A stretch of DNA of 40,796 bases, from contig JACWAD010000010.1 of assembly GCA_014874175.1 (NCBI GenBank), positions 1-40,796 of the forward strand. Direction: 5' to 3'. The notes under the pieces are model-generated. The model saw nothing but the letters and a program-made list of their open reading frames with translations. It searched no databases and was not told the DNA's origin. Below, in pieces: positions 18,668-31,352 of this stretch. The position numbers and the translations under genes are program-made. The stretch's first letter is position 1. Each line of letters begins with the position of its first letter. This DNA is from Thermoleophilia bacterium (GTDB taxonomy: Bacteria > Actinomycetota > Thermoleophilia > BMS3ABIN01).

Positions 18668-20743
18668 TTAACCATTTCCGCGCTCCGTCACTTCCCTGAT
18701 TGCCCAGGCGGTTGCATCAACCAGTTGTTTGAGTTCACCGGTGTGGATGGAAAGCGGCGGCACGAGCGCCACGGTATCGTCCAGGGGACGGATAATCACG
18801 CCCCGCTCGCGCGCCTTGAGGATGACGCGCCGGGCAACCCTTTCATGGAGCGGGAAGGGCGCCTGAGACTGCCGCTCCCTGACCAGCTCGACGCCTGCCA
18901 TCAGGCCCAGCTGCCGCACGTCGCCGACATGCGGCAGCCGTTTCAAAGGCTCAAGCAGTGCCGCCAGCCGCGCTGATCTTTTCCCGATCCCGGGAAGAAA
19001 ACCCGGTTTTCTGACCAGTTCAATATTGGCCAACGCCGCGGCTGAGGCCAGCGGGTTGCCGGTATATGTGTGGCCGTGGAAAAAGGTTTTCAGCTCTTCA
19101 TAACGCCCCAGGAAGGCGGCGTAAATCTCTTCCTTAAACAGAGTGGCGGCCAGCGGCAGGTATCCTCCCGTTATTCCTTTGGCCAAAGCAATGATATCCG
19201 GTCTTAGGTCTTCCTGCTGGCAGGCGAACATTGTGCCCGTGCGTCCGAAACCTGTGGCGACCTCGTCGGCGATCAGGAGGGCGCCGTGCCGCCGGCAGAG
19301 GCGAGTGATCTTTTTCAGGTAGCCGGGAGGCTGCACCAGCACGCCAGCGGCGGCCTGCACGCGCGGCTCTACGATCACCGCTGCGACACGCCCCGCCCGG
19401 CGCTCAAGCAGGGTTTCCAGGGCATCCAGGCATGCCAGCCGGCAGCCGGGATGGGAGAGGCCGGCGGTACAGCGGTAGCAATAGGCGGCCGGCGCCAGGT
19501 GCGCCCTGAACAGAAGCGGCCGGAACATGGAATGGTAAAGGTCATGGCCGCCAACGCTGACGGCGCCAAGGGTGTCTCCGTGATAGGCATTGACAAAGCT
19601 TATGAACTCGTTCCTGTCCGGCTGCCCGCTCTGGCGCCAGTACTGGAAGGCAACCTTCAGCGCTACCTCAACTGCGGTGGAGCCGTTGTCGGAGAAAAAC
19701 ACGCGCTCGAGCCCGCCGGGCGCCATCTCCGCCAGCCGCGCCGCCAGCAGCGCCGCTGGCTCGTTGCCAAGGCCCAGCAGTGTGGAATGGGCAACCTGTC
19801 CCAGCTGCTTTCTGACGGCCCGGTCCAGCTCCCCGCGGCGATGGCCGTGCACGTTAACCCACAGCGAGGCGGTGCCGTCAAGATAACAACTCCCCAAGCT
19901 GTCATTGAGATAACTGCCTTTTCCTGACACGATCATCAGCGGATGCGGCTTTTCGCCCTGGTATTCAAGCATGGCGCTGAACGGATGCCACACGTGCCTG
20001 CGGTCGGCATCAATCGCGCGACGGTGCCGGCTTTCTCCTTTTGTTTCAAGCTTTGACAGGTCAAGCCGGCCGGCTTGGCGCCCCAGAGCGCGAAAATCCA
20101 AAGCTTCCACGGAGACAGCCATCTCCGGTATGAGACCTATAACAGGAACTTTAGTCAAAACACCAAGCTCGGCAAGGTTGCTTCTCCCGGCCTCATCTGC
20201 TTTGGCGCGGCGGCGGTTGATGACAAGGCCGGCCACGCTCAGGCCCCGCTCCCGGCAGGCGCTTACCGTGAGCAGCGTGTGGTTAAGCGTCCCCAGTCGC
20301 GCTGTGGTGACAACGACTACGGGCAGGTCGAGCTCCTCGGCAATGTCAAGAAAGGTTTTTCTGGAGCTGACGGGGGCCATGATGCCGCCGGCGCCCTCGA
20401 CCAGTACGGCGTCGTATTTCTTCTTAAGGCGGTTGAGCTTGCCGGCAATGGCCCTGACATCAATCCTGACGCCATCTGCGGCAGCAGCCAGGTGCGGCGA
20501 AACAGGCTTACTCAGGCGGTAAAGGCCCACGTCTTCCTCGGGAATGCCGGCCGCGGCCGCAAGAAAGGCGTTGTCAGCCCAGATTTCCCGTCCCCGCCGT
20601 TTGCGGCAGCCTGCAGCCACAGGCTTGAAAGGTGCCGTGGCTACGCCCTGGCGGCGGTAGGCCAGGGCAAGCAGGGCGGTGGCGACCGTCTTGCCGACTC
20701 CGGTATCGGTGCCGGTCACAAGCAATGAGGGCAGCCGGCTCAA
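18668..20743 (-). CDS. bioDA: Fused dethiobiotin synthetase (N) - DAPA aminotransferase (C)
   Basis: Bio[39 protein letters not shown]; Bio[92 protein letters not shown]; one uninterrupted 691-aa frame. Confidence 0.93.
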
Positions 20744-23149: not shown

Positions 23150-23932
23150 ATGACAGCCTTTATGCTTGCCATAGATGTCGGCAACTCGCACACCGTTGCC
23201 GGTCTTTTTGCCAATGGAAACCTGTCAGAGCACTGGCGCGTCGCCACCGACGCCCATGCCACTGCCGACCAGTTGGCGGCGGTGCTGTCTTCGCTTCTGG
23301 CTCTTGGTGGACGGCGGCTGGACCAGGTGGGCGAGCTGATCGTGTCATCTGTTGTGCCGCCCCTGGTGAGCCAGTACGAGCGGCTGGCCCGGCGGCGCCT
23401 GGGCGCTGAGGCTCTGGTTGTAGGGCCGGGCATCAAGACCGGCCTGCCGGTTCTGACAAACAACCCGCATGAGGTGGGGGCGGACCGGATAGTGAACGCG
23501 GTCGCCGCCCTGGATATCCTGGGCGGGCCCAGCATTGTGGTGGATTTTGGCACCGCCACCACGTTTTGCGCCCTCTCTGGGGCTGGCGAGTACCTGGGCG
23601 GCGCCATCGCCCCCGGCGTGGTAGTCTCATTGGAGGCGCTGACGGCGCGGGCGGCGCAGCTTTCCCGGGTAGACCTGCTCAGGCCGGAGGCAGTCATCGG
23701 CAAGACAACCTCCGCTTCGCTCAGATCCGGAGTAATTTACGGTTTTGCCGGGCAGGTGGACGGCATTGTCAGCAGGATGAGGCGGGAGCTAGGAGGAGAA
23801 GAAGTTGCGACCATCGCCACCGGCGGCTTTGCCGGCCTGATCGTGCCGGAGACCTCCACCTTGAGCCGGGTTGACCCGCTGCTCACCCTGAAGGGTTTGA
23901 AACTTGTGCACGAAAGGAACCAAAAAAAGTAG
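23150..23932 (+). CDS. coaX: Type III pantothenate kinase
   Basis: LAIDVGNSHTVAGLF, VGADRIVNAVAA, VDFGTATTFCALSGAGEYLGGAIAPGV; ATG at 23150 preferred. Confidence 0.94.
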   Translation: MTAFMLAIDVGNSHTVAGLFANGNLSEHWRVATDAHATADQLAAVLSSLLALGGRRLDQVGELIVSSVVPPLVSQYERLARRRLGAEALVVGPGIKTGLPVLTNNPHEVGADRIVNAVAALDILGGPSIVVDFGTATTFCALSGAGEYLGGAIAPGVVVSLEALTARAAQLSRVDLLRPEAVIGKTTSASLRSGVIYGFAGQVDGIVSRMRRELGGEEVATIATGGFAGLIVPETSTLSRVDPLLTLKGLKLVHERNQKK

Positions 23933-24110: not shown

Positions 24111-24947
24111 ATGAACCCTGAAACCACGGTCTCAAAGCCGGAGCGGTCCGGGCCTGAGACCCAGGCGAGGCCCTTCGTGATTGCCCATATCTCCGACATG
24201 CATGCCGGCTCGCAATACTTTGTCCCCAACCTGATGGACCGCGCCGTTATCGAGCTAAACGAGATGAAGCCGAACATCGTGGTGGTTACCGGAGATCTGA
24301 CCAACGAGGGTTTTAAACAGGAGTACCTGCTGGCTAAAAGTTACCTGGACAAGATTCAGTGTGATGATCTTGTGGTTGTGCCGGGCAATCACGACGCCCG
24401 CAACGTCGGTTACGTTCATTTTGAGGAGCTGTTTGGCTCCCGTCAGAGCGTCAGCCACAAGGACGGCATCAGCGTCGTGGGCGTCGACTCTTCCGAACCG
24501 GATCTTGACCACGGCACAATCGGCCGCCACCGCTACGCATGGCTGCGGGAGCAGTTTGCGCCGCCGGCCAATTTCCGCGTCTTCGTGCTGCACCACCACC
24601 TGCTGCCAGTGCCGGGCACCGGCCGCGAGCGCAACATGGTTTACGACGCTGGCGACGTCCTTGAGGTATTGCAGGAATGCGACGTAAACCTGGTGTTAAG
24701 CGGTCACAAGCACGTGCCGCATGCCTGGCGGCTGGAGAATATCTTTGCCGTCAATGCCGGCACAGTCTGCACGCTAAGACTGCGGGGGAAGGTGCGTCCC
24801 TGTTACAATGTCATCGAGATCGGCGCCTCCGAGGTGACCATCTGGCGCAAATATCCGTTCCATGACGCCGACCAGATCATCAGGTTTTCCCCCTCAACGC
24901 TCGCTTTTAAAAAATCGTTTCCGGCCACTGGGGAGGAAGCGCCTTGA
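24111..24947 (+). CDS. Calcineurin-like metallophosphoesterase, first gene of the putative cDPG operon
   Basis: HISDMHAGSQ, VVTGDLTNEG, VVPGNHDARN, VLHHHLLPVP, LSGHKHVPHA. Confidence 0.92.
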   Translation: MNPETTVSKPERSGPETQARPFVIAHISDMHAGSQYFVPNLMDRAVIELNEMKPNIVVVTGDLTNEGFKQEYLLAKSYLDKIQCDDLVVVPGNHDARNVGYVHFEELFGSRQSVSHKDGISVVGVDSSEPDLDHGTIGRHRYAWLREQFAPPANFRVFVLHHHLLPVPGTGRERNMVYDAGDVLEVLQECDVNLVLSGHKHVPHAWRLENIFAVNAGTVCTLRLRGKVRPCYNVIEIGASEVTIWRKYPFHDADQIIRFSPSTLAFKKSFPATGEEAP

Positions 24948-26323
24948 AGCGGGCGATTGCGCTCATTGATGGGGAGCATTACCCCAATGTGATCAGGGAG
25001 GCCCTGCAGGAGCTCTCGGACCGCTACCAGGTCGACGCCGCTGTGCTGATGGGAGGCACGGAAAAGCTAAACGGGGCAATGGCTGAGGACGCCGGGAAAA
25101 AATATTACGCGGTTCCGGTGATGTTTGACCCCGATCCCCTCAAGGCCTTTACGGCGGCCCTGCGCCGGCACCGGCCGCAGGTAGTTGTTGACTTAAGCGA
25201 TGAGCCGGTGCTAGGATACATCCAGAGGTTCCATTATGCCAGCTATGCGCTGGCTGCCGGGGCTGAATATCAAGGCGCCGATTTTACTTTTCTTCCTCCG
25301 TCTTTTTATAAGCTTTCCACGAAGCCTTCCATTTCTGTTATTGGCACCGGCAAGAGAATAGGTAAAACCGCCGTCAGCGGCTTTCTGGCCCGGGAAGTGA
25401 GAGGTCATCTTTCCAGGTCGGGAAAGGATGGGAAGGTTGTAGTTGTGGCAATGGGGCGAGGCGGCCCTCCGGAGCCGGAGCTGATCAGCGGTGAGAAGGA
25501 GCGGCTGGGAGCCGCCGAACTTCTCTCTTTCAGCAGGCAGGGCAAGCACGCCGCCTCGGATTATCTGGAAGACGCTGCGCTCAGCTCCGTGACGACCATC
25601 GGCTGCCGGCGCTGCGGCGGCGGCATGGCGGGTATGCCGTTTGTTTCCAATGTGGTTGAGGGAGCCCGCCTGGCCGAAACGCTGCCGGCGGCGCTGGTTA
25701 TCTTCGAGGGCAGCGGCTCGGCGCTGCCGCCCGTGAGCGCGGACCGGGTTCTGTGCGTGGCTGGAGCGAACCAGCCGGAGGACTACCTGCTCGGTTATTT
25801 TGGCGCTTACCGTATGCTTATCTCCGACGCGGTGGTTCTGACAATGTGCGAGGAGCCGCTGGCCAGTCCGGAAAAGGTTGAGAGGATCGCCACTGGCATA
25901 CGCAGCATCAAACCGGACGCCGAGGTAGTGACTACGGTTCTGAGGCCCAGGCCAGCAGGCGATATCAGCGGTGCCCGGGTGGCTTATTTTTCCACAGCGC
26001 CGGCGGAGATAGCCGGCCGCATCGCCGCTTACGTTGCGGAGACGTTCGATTGCTCCGTTGATTTTGTCTCGGCCGAGCTTGCCCGGCGGGACAGGCTGCG
26101 GGAGGCGCTGGCAGGACTGAAGCCCGCAGCGGTGGATATCTTCCTGACGGAGATAAAGGCGGCGGCCGTTGACGTGGTTGCCGAGGAGGCCGACAGCCGC
26201 GGCACGAGGATCGTTTTTTGCGACAACGTCCCGGTCGAGACAGGCGCCCCTGGGCGGCTGGCGCCGCTGATGGAGGACCTGGCCCGGCAGGCGATGGCAG
26301 AGTTTGGCAGGAGCGATGGCTGA
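24944..26323 (+). CDS. Cyclic 2,3-diphosphoglycerate synthetase family protein
   Basis: N-terminus RAIALIDGEHYPNVIREAL...VLMGGTEKL and nucleotide-binding ISVIGTGKRIGKTAVSGFLAR...VVVAMGRGGPPEPELI fit my recollection of the archaeal cDPG synthetase family; TTG start, 4-bp overlap with upstream gene. Confidence 0.82.
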   Translation: MKRAIALIDGEHYPNVIREALQELSDRYQVDAAVLMGGTEKLNGAMAEDAGKKYYAVPVMFDPDPLKAFTAALRRHRPQVVVDLSDEPVLGYIQRFHYASYALAAGAEYQGADFTFLPPSFYKLSTKPSISVIGTGKRIGKTAVSGFLAREVRGHLSRSGKDGKVVVVAMGRGGPPEPELISGEKERLGAAELLSFSRQGKHAASDYLEDAALSSVTTIGCRRCGGGMAGMPFVSNVVEGARLAETLPAALVIFEGSGSALPPVSADRVLCVAGANQPEDYLLGYFGAYRMLISDAVVLTMCEEPLASPEKVERIATGIRSIKPDAEVVTTVLRPRPAGDISGARVAYFSTAPAEIAGRIAAYVAETFDCSVDFVSAELARRDRLREALAGLKPAAVDIFLTEIKAAAVDVVAEEADSRGTRIVFCDNVPVETGAPGRLAPLMEDLARQAMAEFGRSDG

Positions 26324-27275
26324 GAAGCCCAGGGGCGACACGGGCCGTGAGCATACCGATCTGCAGATTGTCAGCAGGGAGTTCGGCCTGCCCTATTCAA
26401 AAGGCCTGATGGCGCAGTCGATCATGGCTACCGGGCTGCCGCCCGAGCGCGCTTATCATGTGGCCCGCGAGATCGAGCAGCACCTGATCGACAGCGGCGA
26501 GGCAAACATAACAATTTTCCGGCTGCGCGAGATCGCGCAGCAGGTTCTGGGGGAGGAAGAAGGGCACCGGTTCACGGAGCGGTACCGGCTCTGGCGGGTG
26601 CTGTCAGAGCTGGAGAAGCCGATGATTATCCTTATCGGCGGCGCAACCGGCGTTGGCAAAAGCACGCTGGCGCAGCAGGTGGCGCACAGGCTGGGCGTCA
26701 CCAGGCTGACGTCAACGGACTCGATTAGGCAGGTGATGAGAGCCTGTTTCTCGAAGGACCTGATGCCCTCCATTCATTATTCTTCCTTCGAAGCCGGGCA
26801 GGTTGTCAGGGCCGCCGACAAGCGCGGCGCCGACCGTGACATCAGCGGTTATGTGTCACAGATTGAGAAAGTAAGCGTCGGCGTCAACGCGATCATAGAG
26901 CGCGCCATCAGGGAGGGCACGAGAATGGTGGTTGAAGGCGCCCACATCGTGCCGGGCTTTTTAAACGAGAAGCTCTGGCGGGACGCCATCGTCATCCAGG
27001 TGCTGATGGTGGTGCAGGATGCCGACAGGCACCGGGGGCACTTCTACGTGCGCGACCAGGAGACCGACGGGGTGCGGTCGCTGAACAAGTACATGGCCAA
27101 CCTGGAAAAGATCAGGCGGGTGCAGACCTTTCTGATGGAGAGGGCCAAGGAGGCCGGCTGGCCGGTAATTGACAACCACAGCATTGACGATGCTGTCAAA
27201 ATTGTGATGGGAGTCGTGCTTGAAGCGGTTAACAAATATCAGAAATCCTGCAATCTACAAATTGAGGTGAATTGA
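26316..27275 (+). CDS. 2-phosphoglycerate kinase (ATP-cone-like N-terminus plus P-loop kinase)
   Basis: ATP-cone-like YSKGLMAQSIMATGLPPERAYHVAREIEQHLIDSG; P-loop ILIGGATGVGKSTLAQQVAHRLGVTRLTSTDSIRQVMRA; EGTRMVVEGAHIVPGF, typical of methanogen 2-PGK. Confidence 0.85.
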   Translation: MAEKPRGDTGREHTDLQIVSREFGLPYSKGLMAQSIMATGLPPERAYHVAREIEQHLIDSGEANITIFRLREIAQQVLGEEEGHRFTERYRLWRVLSELEKPMIILIGGATGVGKSTLAQQVAHRLGVTRLTSTDSIRQVMRACFSKDLMPSIHYSSFEAGQVVRAADKRGADRDISGYVSQIEKVSVGVNAIIERAIREGTRMVVEGAHIVPGFLNEKLWRDAIVIQVLMVVQDADRHRGHFYVRDQETDGVRSLNKYMANLEKIRRVQTFLMERAKEAGWPVIDNHSIDDAVKIVMGVVLEAVNKYQKSCNLQIEVN

Positions 27276-27955
27276 TGGACCTTTTCATCGATACTGCCAA
27301 CCTTGATGACATCCGCGAGATCTCGCGCTGGGGCATTCTCAGGGGGGCGACCACGAACCCGACGCTGCTTTCCCGCGAGAGCGGAGATTATAACATGATT
27401 TTGCAGGAGATATGCGGGCTGGTCGGCGGGCCAGTAAGCGCTGAGGTTTTGGCAGACGACGCCGAGGGTATGGTAGCGGAGGCGGAGCAGTTGGCGGGCC
27501 TGCATGACAGCATTGTCATCAAGCTGCCCACGACCGCTGAGGGGCTGCAGGCTGCCGGCGAGCTAAAGCGCCGGCAAATAAAAACAAACGTCACCCTGGT
27601 TTTTTCTGCCAACCAGGCCCTGATGGCGGCCACTGCGGGGGCGACTTATGTCAGCCCGTTTGTCGGCCGGCTTGATGATATCGGGCACGATTCCGGGGAG
27701 ATCCTGGCGGATATCGTCGATATCTTTTCTGTTAACAAGATTTCCACTAAAGTAATTGCAGCCAGCATCCGACATCCCTTGCATGTCACCCAGGCCGCCC
27801 TGCTCGGGTGCGACATTGCCACTATTCCACCGCAGGTTTTCCGGAAGATGCTCAAACATCCGTTGACAGACATCGGCATTAAGCTTTTCAAGCAGGACTG
27901 GGAGAAAAAGCAGAAAAAGCAGACGGAAAAGCAGGCTTTGGACGTTGGACTTTAG
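27275..27955 (+). CDS. Transaldolase / fructose-6-phosphate aldolase-like (TalC/Fsa family)
   Basis: MDLFIDTANLDDIREISRWGILRGATTNPTLLSRE, KTNVTLVFSANQALMAATAGATYVSPFVGRLDDIG. Confidence 0.93.
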   Translation: MDLFIDTANLDDIREISRWGILRGATTNPTLLSRESGDYNMILQEICGLVGGPVSAEVLADDAEGMVAEAEQLAGLHDSIVIKLPTTAEGLQAAGELKRRQIKTNVTLVFSANQALMAATAGATYVSPFVGRLDDIGHDSGEILADIVDIFSVNKISTKVIAASIRHPLHVTQAALLGCDIATIPPQVFRKMLKHPLTDIGIKLFKQDWEKKQKKQTEKQALDVGL

Positions 27956-28042: not shown

Positions 28043-29299
28043 ATGGAAATAGTAGAACATCAAAATCAGGAAGAGGAAGTAGAATCCCAGGTCAATGCTG
28101 ACCCGGACGATGGCGCAGCCGGGACAAAAGCGGACAAAGAAGCGCCGCGGCCGGTAAAGGAGGCTCCGGGGCGGCCGCCTGAACGGGTAAAGCTCAAGAC
28201 CGGCACCCTGGACCTGCTGCCGGACGGATTCGGATTCCTGCGCACGAAAGGGTACGTCCAAAGCGACGAGGACATTTACGTTTCCCTCTCGCAGATCAGG
28301 CGCTTCAACCTCAGGCGCGGTGACGAGATAACCGGGCAGGTGCGCGAACCAAAGGACAGCGAGAAATACAACGCCCTGCTCAAGATTGAGGCGGTCAACG
28401 GGGTGGAGCCGGAATCGGCGCGCCGCCGGCCCAATTTTGACGCGCTCACCCCCCTGTTCCCGATGGAGCGCCTGCGCCTGGAGACAGAGCCGGGCGTCAT
28501 CGCCACCCGGGTGATAGACTTGATTGCTCCCATCGGCAAGGGGCAGCGCGGCCTGATCGTGTCGCCGCCCAAGGCCGGCAAAACTACCATCCTGAAGCAG
28601 ATTGCCAACAGCATCACCGAAAATGCTCCAGATGTATACCTGCTTGTGCTGCTGGTGGATGAGCGGCCCGAGGAAGTAACCGACATGCAGCGCTCTGTCA
28701 AGGGAGAGGTGGTCAGCTCCACTTTTGACCAGCCTTCTGACAATCACGTCCAGGTGGCCGAGCTGGTGCTTGACCGCGTGAAGCGGCTGGTGGAGTCGGG
28801 GCGCGATGTTGTCGTGCTGCTGGACAGCATCACCAGGCTGGCGCGGGCCTACAACTTGACGGCGCCCGCCAGCGGCCGCATCCTCTCCGGCGGCGTCGAT
28901 TCCACGGCGCTGTTCCCGCCAAAGAAGTTCTTTGGCGCCGCCCGCAACGTTGAGGAGGGAGGCTCACTAACGATCCTGGCGACCGCACTTGTTGACACCG
29001 GCAGCCGCATGGATGAGGTCATCTTTGAGGAGTTCAAGGGAACGGGCAACATGGAGCTGCATCTTGACCGCAGGCTGGCCGACAAGCGCATTTTCCCCGC
29101 CATCGACATCGAGCGCTCCGGCACCCGCAAGGAAGAGCTGCTGATGGAAGAGGCGGAAGCAACACAAGTGTGGAAGCTGCGCAATGTGCTGCACGCTCTT
29201 GACCCGGGCGCCGCCATTGAGCTGCTTATCTCCAAGCTGCGCGAAACGAAGGATAACCCGCAGTTCCTGAAAGAGATTCAGAAGAACTCATCCAGGTAA
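28043..29299 (+). CDS. rho: Transcription termination factor Rho
   Basis: [13 protein letters not shown] cold-shock-like domain, [56 protein letters not shown]. Confidence 0.97.
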
Positions 29300-29365: not shown

Positions 29366-29809
29366 TCAAAAGTCGATGGGCAGGATGTGATCCCTGTTCA
29401 GCGCTGTGATGAATTTTTCCGCTTCTTCTTCCATGTTTTTCTTCTGCATGCTGTCAAGCTCTTTCATTAGTGTCTCGCGTCCGATGCGGGCATTCTTGAG
29501 CAGCTCGCGCACGGTCTCGCGGTCAACGACCAACTCGCGCTTGCAGAGGCAATTCGGGCAAAGCAGCATCACTTTCCACTCCATGTCGTTGATCTGGTAG
29601 CGCTCAACTGGGTAGACCAGTTTGGAACGGCATAGCGGGCACGTCTGCAGCTCGGTTCTTTTTTTCTGCAATTCGGCCATGATTTCCTTGATTATGCTGC
29701 CGGTGGATCCTATATCATCAAAGCAGACAAGATCGATTACCTGCCCCTGGGCAAGGACCACTCTCTGGACGAAAAATTCGCTATTCTTGTTGTTGCTATC
29801 TGTGAACAA
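29366..29809 (-). CDS. Uncharacterised zinc-ribbon protein (147 aa)
   Basis: CPLCRSKLVYPVERYQINDMEWKVMLLCPNCLCKRELVV, two CxxC pairs; convergent with rho. Confidence 0.7.
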   Translation of the reverse strand: MFTDSNNKNSEFFVQRVVLAQGQVIDLVCFDDIGSTGSIIKEIMAELQKKRTELQTCPLCRSKLVYPVERYQINDMEWKVMLLCPNCLCKRELVVDRETVRELLKNARIGRETLMKELDSMQKKNMEEEAEKFITALNRDHILPIDF

Positions 29810-30008: not shown

Positions 30009-31352
30009 TTATCCTCGCCGCCGCCGCGACGCCGGCGGGATGGCTGCCTGCTGGCGGTACTTGGCCACGGTGCGGCGCGATATTGATATTTCTTCTTTTT
30101 TGAGCAGGTCCGTGAGCCGCTGGTCTGAAAGCGGGCGCCGGCTGTCTTCATCGGCAATCAGGACGGCGATCCGTTTCTTTATGGCGCTGGAGGCAAGGCT
30201 CCCGCCCGCCGCTGCGTAGCCGGCGGAGAAAAAATAGCGCAGCTCGAAAACGCCAAAGGGCGTGTTCATGTACTTGCCTACGATGGCGCGGCTGACAGTG
30301 GAAGGGTGCACGTACAGAGAGTCTGCAATCTGCTCAAGTGTGAGGGGTTTCAAGTGACCGGGCCCATGCTCAAAGAAACCGGGCTGGGCTTCGGCGATGG
30401 CGCGGGCAACCTTGATCATGGTAATGCGCCGCTTGTTAATGTCACGAATAAACTCGTTGGCATTTTTCAGCCTTGATTTTATGTAATCGCGGGTGGCGGC
30501 TTCCCCGCCCGCGGCCATTTTTTTATACATAAGGTTCACCTTCAGGAAGGGCGTCAACTCCCTGTTGGCGAGCACCTGGACCCGGCCCTGGCTGACCTGG
30601 ACGAAAACATCGGGAATCACCACCGCCGCCGGCGGGCCGGCGTCAAAGAGGGAACCGGGTGAGGGGTTGAGACTGCGGATGAGATCGATTGCCTTTTCCA
30701 CCCGATCCTTTTGCGCGCCAAGCTCTCTCGCGATCTCGCCGCTGGCGCCGCGGGCGACCTGCTTAAGGTGCTTTTCTGCGATCCTGAGGGCAGTCTTGCC
30801 TGCGCCCAGTTGCCTGAGCTGGATGGCGAGGCATTCTTCCAGGCTGCGCGCGGCCACCCCGGGAGGGTCAAATTCCTGCACGAGCTTTAGCACCTTGCCG
30901 GCCTGGGCAGTGTTGCTGCCTGCCGCCCGGGCGACATCCCGGACCGCCTCGCGCAGATACCCATCGTCGTCCAGGTTGCCGATTATGGCAAGCCCGAGCC
31001 GCCTTGCAGCCGGAGAGAGGTCTTTTAAATCCAGCTGCAGAGTCAGGTGGTCGGCAAGGGTGAGGGGGCTGGCGGCCAGTTCAGGCGGGATGACTGTCCC
31101 GGATGCGGGCACCCCGGCCCGGCTGCCGGTGCGCGCCACTGCGGCGTAATCACGCCAAAGCCGGCGGCCCGGCGCCGGGGCAATGTCGAGATCGGCCGGC
31201 TCGGGGATTTCCAGCACCGGATTTTCATCGATTTCCCTGCGAATTAATTCCCTCAGCCCGGCCGCATCGAGCCGCAGTATCTTCAGGCTCTGGTAGAGCC
31301 GGGGAGACAGCTTCTGCTGCTGGCGGATGGTTAGGGAAGGCTTGATTTTCAT
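30009..31352 (-). CDS. rpoN: RNA polymerase sigma-54 factor
   Basis: Region I MKIKPSLTIRQQQKLSPRLYQSLKILRLDAAGLRELIRREIDENPVLEI; HTH LEQIADSLYVHPSTVSRAIVGKYMNTPFGVFELRYFFS; RpoN box SRRTVAKYR. Confidence 0.95.
   Translation of the reverse strand: MKIKPSLTIRQQQKLSPRLYQSLKILRLDAAGLRELIRREIDENPVLEIPEPADLDIAPAPGRRLWRDYAAVARTGSRAGVPASGTVIPPELAASPLTLADHLTLQLDLKDLSPAARRLGLAIIGNLDDDGYLREAVRDVARAAGSNTAQAGKVLKLVQEFDPPGVAARSLEECLAIQLRQLGAGKTALRIAEKHLKQVARGASGEIARELGAQKDRVEKAIDLIRSLNPSPGSLFDAGPPAAVVIPDVFVQVSQGRVQVLANRELTPFLKVNLMYKKMAAGGEAATRDYIKSRLKNANEFIRDINKRRITMIKVARAIAEAQPGFFEHGPGHLKPLTLEQIADSLYVHPSTVSRAIVGKYMNTPFGVFELRYFFSAGYAAAGGSLASSAIKKRIAVLIADEDSRRPLSDQRLTDLLKKEEISISRRTVAKYRQQAAIPPASRRRRG

Follow-up and report, generated by a model that had tools for sequence, protein, structure and literature searches.

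A conserved gene module for the predicted synthesis and turnover of cyclic 2,3-diphosphoglycerate in bacteria and archaea

The stretch of DNA analyzed here (the window; 40,796 nucleotides, contig JACWAD010000010.1, assembly GCA_014874175.1) comes from a metagenome-assembled genome (MAG) of a Thermoleophilia bacterium (1.78 Mb in 107 contigs; genome G000), whose closest named relatives are uncultured members of the same class that are known from MAGs. It encodes a calcineurin-like metallophosphoesterase, a homolog of the cyclic 2,3-diphosphoglycerate (cDPG) synthetase (cDPGS), a 2-phosphoglycerate kinase (2PGK) and a fructose-6-phosphate aldolase family protein. The four open reading frames (ORFs; 24111-24947, 24944-26323, 26304-27275 and 27272-27955) lie on the plus strand and overlap exactly as originally described. 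The TTGA at 24944-24947 combines the TTG start of the cDPGS gene with the TGA stop of the phosphoesterase gene. The 2PGK frame is open from TTG 26304, but the ATG at 26316 has the better ribosome-binding site (AGGAG immediately 5'); with this start, the overlap with the cDPGS gene is 8 bp. The kinase and aldolase genes are joined by the TGATG at 27273-27277, the aldolase frame being open from TTG 27272. Each of the four starts is preceded by a purine-rich, ribosome-binding-like stretch, and a scan of the locus for promoters and terminators gave signal at chance level. The gene order is kept across many families, which excludes a chance arrangement. Carriage of the locus by a plasmid or virus was considered and rejected because the plasmid and viral searches gave no matches.

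The synthetase matches the crystallized enzyme of Methanothermus fervidus (PDB 8ORU/8ORK) with an E-value of 9e-115 over residues 2-433 of 459, including the N-terminal domain, which is without other known relatives. The ligand residues reported for the M. fervidus enzyme are E45, K46, K145, R146, T150, D208, E305, P335, T353 and E404 (PMC10690619). All those that bind 2,3-diphosphoglycerate (2,3-DPG), Mg or nucleotide and could be mapped, that is, all in this list except P335, are kept in the window protein, in which the ligand and P-loop equivalents are E40, K41, K137, R138, K141, T142, D206, E303, T351 and E403. The mapping of P335 is uncertain and was not used, although alignment A3 shows an invariant proline at position 335 of the window protein. 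In an alignment of 112 cDPGS sequences, E45, K46, K145, R146, T150, D208 and E404 (M. fervidus numbering) are invariant save for a few gapped rows; T353 is threonine in 111 sequences and serine in one, and E305 is glutamate in 95 and aspartate in 15. Thus, the active-site residues that the preliminary description proposed to compare with the M. fervidus enzyme are present within a full-length match, and the window protein is a cDPGS homolog with an intact active site and predicted cyclization activity.

In the cDPGS tree, most of the actinobacterial sequences lie on one side, whereas the other side holds archaeal sequences, M. fervidus and a single Gemmatimonadota sequence; a divergent branch of families f12 and f55 is placed next to the archaeal sequences, and the deep support is modest. 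Recent acquisition from methanogens was rejected as the tree gives no support for it, though the deep branches are weak. The sequence of PDB entry 9SXB is placed among Thermococci, so that a structure of a Thermococci-type cDPGS is already deposited.

The kinase aligns over nearly the whole NCBIfam model PRK04220 (E-value 7e-93), and 2PGK is its best family by far, with scores below both curated cut-offs (311 bits against 343 for PRK04220 and 323 against 603 for PRK12337). The ATP-cone domain (PF03477) is detected at its N-terminus with an E-value of 3e-5, just below the cut-off. Among 89 bacterial and archaeal 2PGK homologs, the P-loop GGATGVGKST (residues 112-121 in numbering from TTG 26304) is fully conserved, as are some 20 other columns. 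The neighboring 2PGK and cDPGS genes had been read as the two-step route from 2-phosphoglycerate via 2,3-DPG to cDPG, an assignment that homology and the intact active sites bear out. In the Rubrobacter-type loci (L188, L189, L216 and L219), the gene order is phosphoesterase, cDPGS, GlpX and rho, and 2PGK is not encoded alongside.

The phosphoesterase belongs to the Metallophos family (PF00149, E-value 1e-20) and contains all five metal-ligand motifs: SDxH (28-31), GD (61-62), GNHD (92-95), HHH (161-163) and GHxH (198-201). These calcineurin-type ligands are intact in the bacterial phosphoesterases and in the N-terminal domain of the archaeal partner, a protein of approximately 500 aa with two tandem phosphoesterase domains whose N-terminal half is 34-47% identical to the bacterial protein. 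Most of the archaeal C-terminal domains have lost several ligands (D to E, H to N, GHxH to GHGG); the Asgard copy retains most of them. The subfamily is further characterized by the motifs RNVG (97-100) and PGTGRERN (168-175) and by R225. The columns common to the bacterial proteins and archaeal N-terminal domains, but not to Rv0805, include N98, V99, G100, D131, H163, P168, G171, E173, R174, G181 and D182; R225 lies outside the compared stretch of Rv0805. Of these residues, R174 and R225 could plausibly bind a trianionic ligand. The closest solved folds to the AlphaFold model of the phosphoesterase, which is a confident one (pLDDT, the predicted local distance difference test score, 89.6), are Rv0805 and GpdQ; purple acid phosphatases are also among the matches of the fold search. 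Assignment to the CpdA/SpdA cyclic-nucleotide phosphodiesterase or anti-phage phosphoesterase equivalogs was rejected because the scores are far below the cut-offs (42 bits against 225 and 40 against 400 for the class III CpdA/SpdA models).

The three genes travel together. Among 60 Thermoleophilia relatives, 40 encode cDPGS; all 40 also encode 2PGK and 39 (all but G037) an ortholog of the phosphoesterase (threshold E ≤ 1e-100), whereas neither gene is found in the 20 genomes that lack cDPGS. The Fisher p for the co-occurrence of the phosphoesterase and cDPGS is 5e-15 but, as in all genome counts given here, the genomes share ancestry, so this value overstates their independence. More broadly, cDPGS is present in 201 of the 396 sampled Actinomycetota genomes (with a small number of weak matches among them), in 91 of the 115 genomes of the phylum that includes Theionarchaea and Thermococci (the latter presumably accounting for the bulk of them), and clearly in five of the 195 genomes of the Asgard phylum, the centre genome being counted in both archaeal sets. 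The phosphoesterase gene adjoins the cDPGS gene on its 5' side, in the same direction, in 36 of 40 actinobacterial loci that represent some 30 further families. In the 115-genome archaeal phylum, both cDPGS and the phosphoesterase are encoded in 89 genomes, cDPGS only in 2, the phosphoesterase only in 9 and neither in 15; in 74 of the 89, the two genes are at most 6 kb apart. Here, the phosphoesterase gene is 3' of the 2PGK gene, co-directional in Theionarchaea and some Thermococcus-like genomes, as in the Asgard archaeon Borrarchaeum, but convergent in many other Thermococcus-like genomes; Pyrococcus-like genomes retain both cDPGS and the phosphoesterase, but apart. In family f12 and in archaea, the trio is found without rho or the aldolase. 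Preservation of the neighborhood despite changes in order, strand and surroundings would be hard to explain without a functional tie. The cDPGS-2PGK-phosphoesterase set is, then, a conserved module that spans two domains of life. Conservation of the phosphoesterase with the pair elsewhere, on which the preliminary description had staked its proposal, is borne out by these counts; of the four genes whose co-occurrence it proposed to survey, the aldolase does not follow the other three.

These observations suggest that the locus probably encodes a three-gene cDPG turnover module within one operon, in which the phosphoesterase opens the cDPG ring and cDPG is a controlled pool. In this scheme, 2PGK would phosphorylate 2-phosphoglycerate to 2,3-DPG, and cDPGS, using ATP, would close the intramolecular phosphoanhydride to yield cDPG. 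The metallophosphoesterase would then reopen the cyclic pyrophosphate through the attack of a two-metal hydroxide on one phosphorus, yielding 2,3-DPG and possibly products of further hydrolysis. In that case, cDPG would not be an osmolytic dead end; it would form a pool of phosphate, carbon or signal under dynamic control. We infer the catalytic activities in this organism, the substrate of the phosphoesterase and the physiological role from sequence comparison. Because the module is conserved in bacteria and archaea, the phosphoesterase appears to be the best candidate for the cDPG hydrolase gene. The broader proposition has, in our estimate, about an even chance of being correct: that the phosphoesterase is the cDPG hydrolase, that cDPG, instead of being confined to methanogens, is a controlled metabolite that is made and degraded in many deep-branching Actinomycetota, Thermococci, Theionarchaea and some Asgard archaea, and that the archaeal version is a duplicate with an active N-terminal half and a mostly degenerate C-terminal half.

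Several findings weigh against this assignment. The nearest solved relatives of the phosphoesterase are cyclic-nucleotide and glycerophospho-diesterases. The same genome encodes a paralog of the same subfamily (L002, 1477-2286 of G000:C31) that is 47% identical and contains the same GTGRERN motif; its counterpart is kept in the congeners G001 and G002, both of which lack cDPGS. Furthermore, cDPGS and 2PGK occur without the phosphoesterase in G037 and the Gemmatimonadota genome of L021 (in both cases genome-wide) and in the loci of families f9, f10 and f42, the nine archaeal genomes mentioned above have the phosphoesterase without cDPGS, and the proven cDPG-making methanogens are represented by the M. 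fervidus synthetase alone. Since the L002-type paralog shares the motifs and persists without cDPGS, the GTGRERN motif is not exclusive to cDPG, and the subfamily may act on more than one substrate. The L002 gene itself is flanked by a P-type ATPase-like ORF on one side and a double rhodanese-like ORF on the other.

Among the alternatives, the one that fares best, although we consider it unlikely, is that the phosphoesterase is part of the pathway yet has a substrate other than the cyclic pyrophosphate: either 2,3-DPG, from which it would form 2- or 3-phosphoglycerate, or side products and damaged products of 2PGK and cDPGS. Phosphomonoesterases do occur in the metallophosphoesterase superfamily, purple acid phosphatases are among the fold matches, and the M. 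fervidus cDPGS is reversible (PMC1224877), so that a separate hydrolase is not strictly required there; nevertheless, the relatives nearest in both sequence and fold, Rv0805 and GpdQ, are phosphodiesterases, and a cDPG-hydrolyzing activity is known in Methanothermobacter (PMC1224877). Still less probable is an unrelated cyclic-nucleotide or nucleic-acid phosphodiesterase that stays beside cDPGS by operon inertia, as the matches to Rv0805 and to the CpdA/SpdA and anti-phage phosphoesterase models might indicate. The NCBIfam matches among these are far below the curated cut-offs, the genes are linked in both domains although their order, strand and neighbors differ, and the ortholog is absent from the Thermoleophilia without cDPGS; inertia does not explain neighborhoods that are rearranged and yet preserved. 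Finally, it is very improbable that the main task of the bacterial pair is to provide a cofactor-dependent phosphoglycerate mutase with its cofactor, 2,3-bisphosphoglycerate, cDPG being a buffer or side product: the 2PGK product is indeed 2,3-DPG, and the literature search found no report of cDPG in these bacteria, but cDPGS keeps its ligand residues across about 110 aligned homologs, and the Rubrobacter-type loci retain the phosphoesterase-cDPGS pair without an adjacent 2PGK, the opposite of what this role predicts.

As to the physiological role within the turnover module, the following reports lead us to prefer the view that cDPG in bacteria is a metabolite pool under control and not a bulk osmolyte. 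In Methanothermobacter thermautotrophicus, turnover of cDPG is rapid and has been read as carbon and phosphate storage (PMC1224877); in Thermococcales, the synthetase responds to pressure, though cDPG has never been detected there (PMC4890121, PMC7511516); and, for Rubrobacter, mannosylglycerate, trehalose and di-myo-inositol phosphate have been reported as solutes (PMC3505630, PMC6741124).

The aldolase, which scores above the cut-off of TIGR00875 (278 bits against 246; fructose-6-phosphate aldolase TalC/Fsa), had been proposed to link the module to sugar-phosphate flux. However, it follows rho: it is found in 25 of the 40 actinobacterial loci, always between 2PGK and rho, is missing from 12 of the 37 untruncated ones, and is absent from every archaeal cDPGS locus examined. 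It was therefore rejected as a member of the cDPG pathway and is judged to belong to the rho neighborhood, as a bystander to the cDPG module. In the Rubrobacter-type loci, the GlpX fructose-1,6-bisphosphatase fills the place between cDPGS and rho; in Bacillus subtilis, a transaldolase gene and glpX are also near rho. A precise loss of the cassette in the congeners G001 and G002 was considered and rejected because the whole region, including rho, is absent from their genomes. No convincing rho was found in these two genomes or in G019, G024 and G028 (all Thermoleophilia, 97-99% complete), and rho appears to be missing from several Thermoleophilia families.

Features of the locus and its immediate neighbors in the window
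Feature	Coordinates	Strand	Evidence or remark
Calcineurin-like metallophosphoesterase, 278 aa, candidate cDPG hydrolase	24111..24947	+	PF00149, motifs, fold
cDPG synthetase (cDPGS), 459 aa, TTG start	24944..26323	+	8ORU/8ORK homology, ligand residues
2-phosphoglycerate kinase (2PGK), N-terminal ATP-cone-like domain	26316..27275	+	Pfam/NCBIfam, P-loop
Fructose-6-phosphate aldolase/transaldolase family, operon neighbor linked to rho	27275..27955	+	TIGR00875
Transcription termination factor Rho, conserved downstream context in Actinomycetota	28043..29299	+	
Type III pantothenate kinase (coaX), upstream neighbor in the window's family	23156..23932	+	Start approximate, ORF open from 22952

Elsewhere in the window, the minus strand encodes a complete sigma-54 (RpoN) with all three Pfam domains (30009-31352); sigma-54 is unusual in Actinomycetota. 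Between rho and rpoN, there is a 147-aa ORF (29366-29809, minus strand) that contains paired CxxC motifs but matches no Pfam or NCBIfam model. A 691-aa ORF (18668-20743, minus strand) fuses a BioD-like AAA_26 domain to a class-III (BioA-like) aminotransferase and adjoins bioF- and bioB-like ORFs.

As late as 2023, a paper described cDPG as found exclusively in hyperthermophilic methanogens. Should half of the sampled Actinomycetota genomes encode cDPG synthesis, the textbook view of a methanogen thermoprotectant would be incomplete at best. What is chiefly new here is the phosphoesterase partner of the cDPGS-2PGK pair. This conserved protein provides a concrete candidate gene for a known degradation step, testable in the cultured and genetically workable Thermococcus kodakarensis, and an identified hydrolase would make it possible to adjust cDPG levels in production strains.

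Compared with known systems, the window synthetase resembles that of M. fervidus (8ORK/8ORU; PMC10690619) over its full length, including the cDPGS-specific N-terminal domain, the P-loop and the inspected ligand residues, but is bacterial, belongs to the actinobacterial branch rather than being nested among the methanogen and Thermococci sequences, and has a TTG start that overlaps the phosphoesterase gene. The same synthetase has been reported outside methanogens, from genomes and proteomes, in Thermococcales and Nitrosocaldus (PMC4890121, PMC7511516, PMC5797428, PMC7554672); the available portions of these reports mention neither bacteria nor a phosphoesterase partner. The kinase has the same order of ATP-cone and P-loop kinase domains as the M. 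fervidus and other archaeal 2PGKs (PRK04220, PRK12337), but scores under the curated cut-offs of these models. With the class III cyclic nucleotide phosphodiesterases (Rv0805, CpdA/SpdA) and GpdQ, the phosphoesterase shares the two-metal calcineurin-like fold and the metal ligands, but the identity is about 25% or less, and RNVG, PGTGRERN and R225 are additional conserved elements. The reaction predicted for it is that of the M. thermautotrophicus cDPG hydrolase, for which the literature search found no paper naming a gene. That hydrolase activity is reported to be bound to the membrane (PMC1224877, with reference to van Alebeek 1994 and Sastry 1992).

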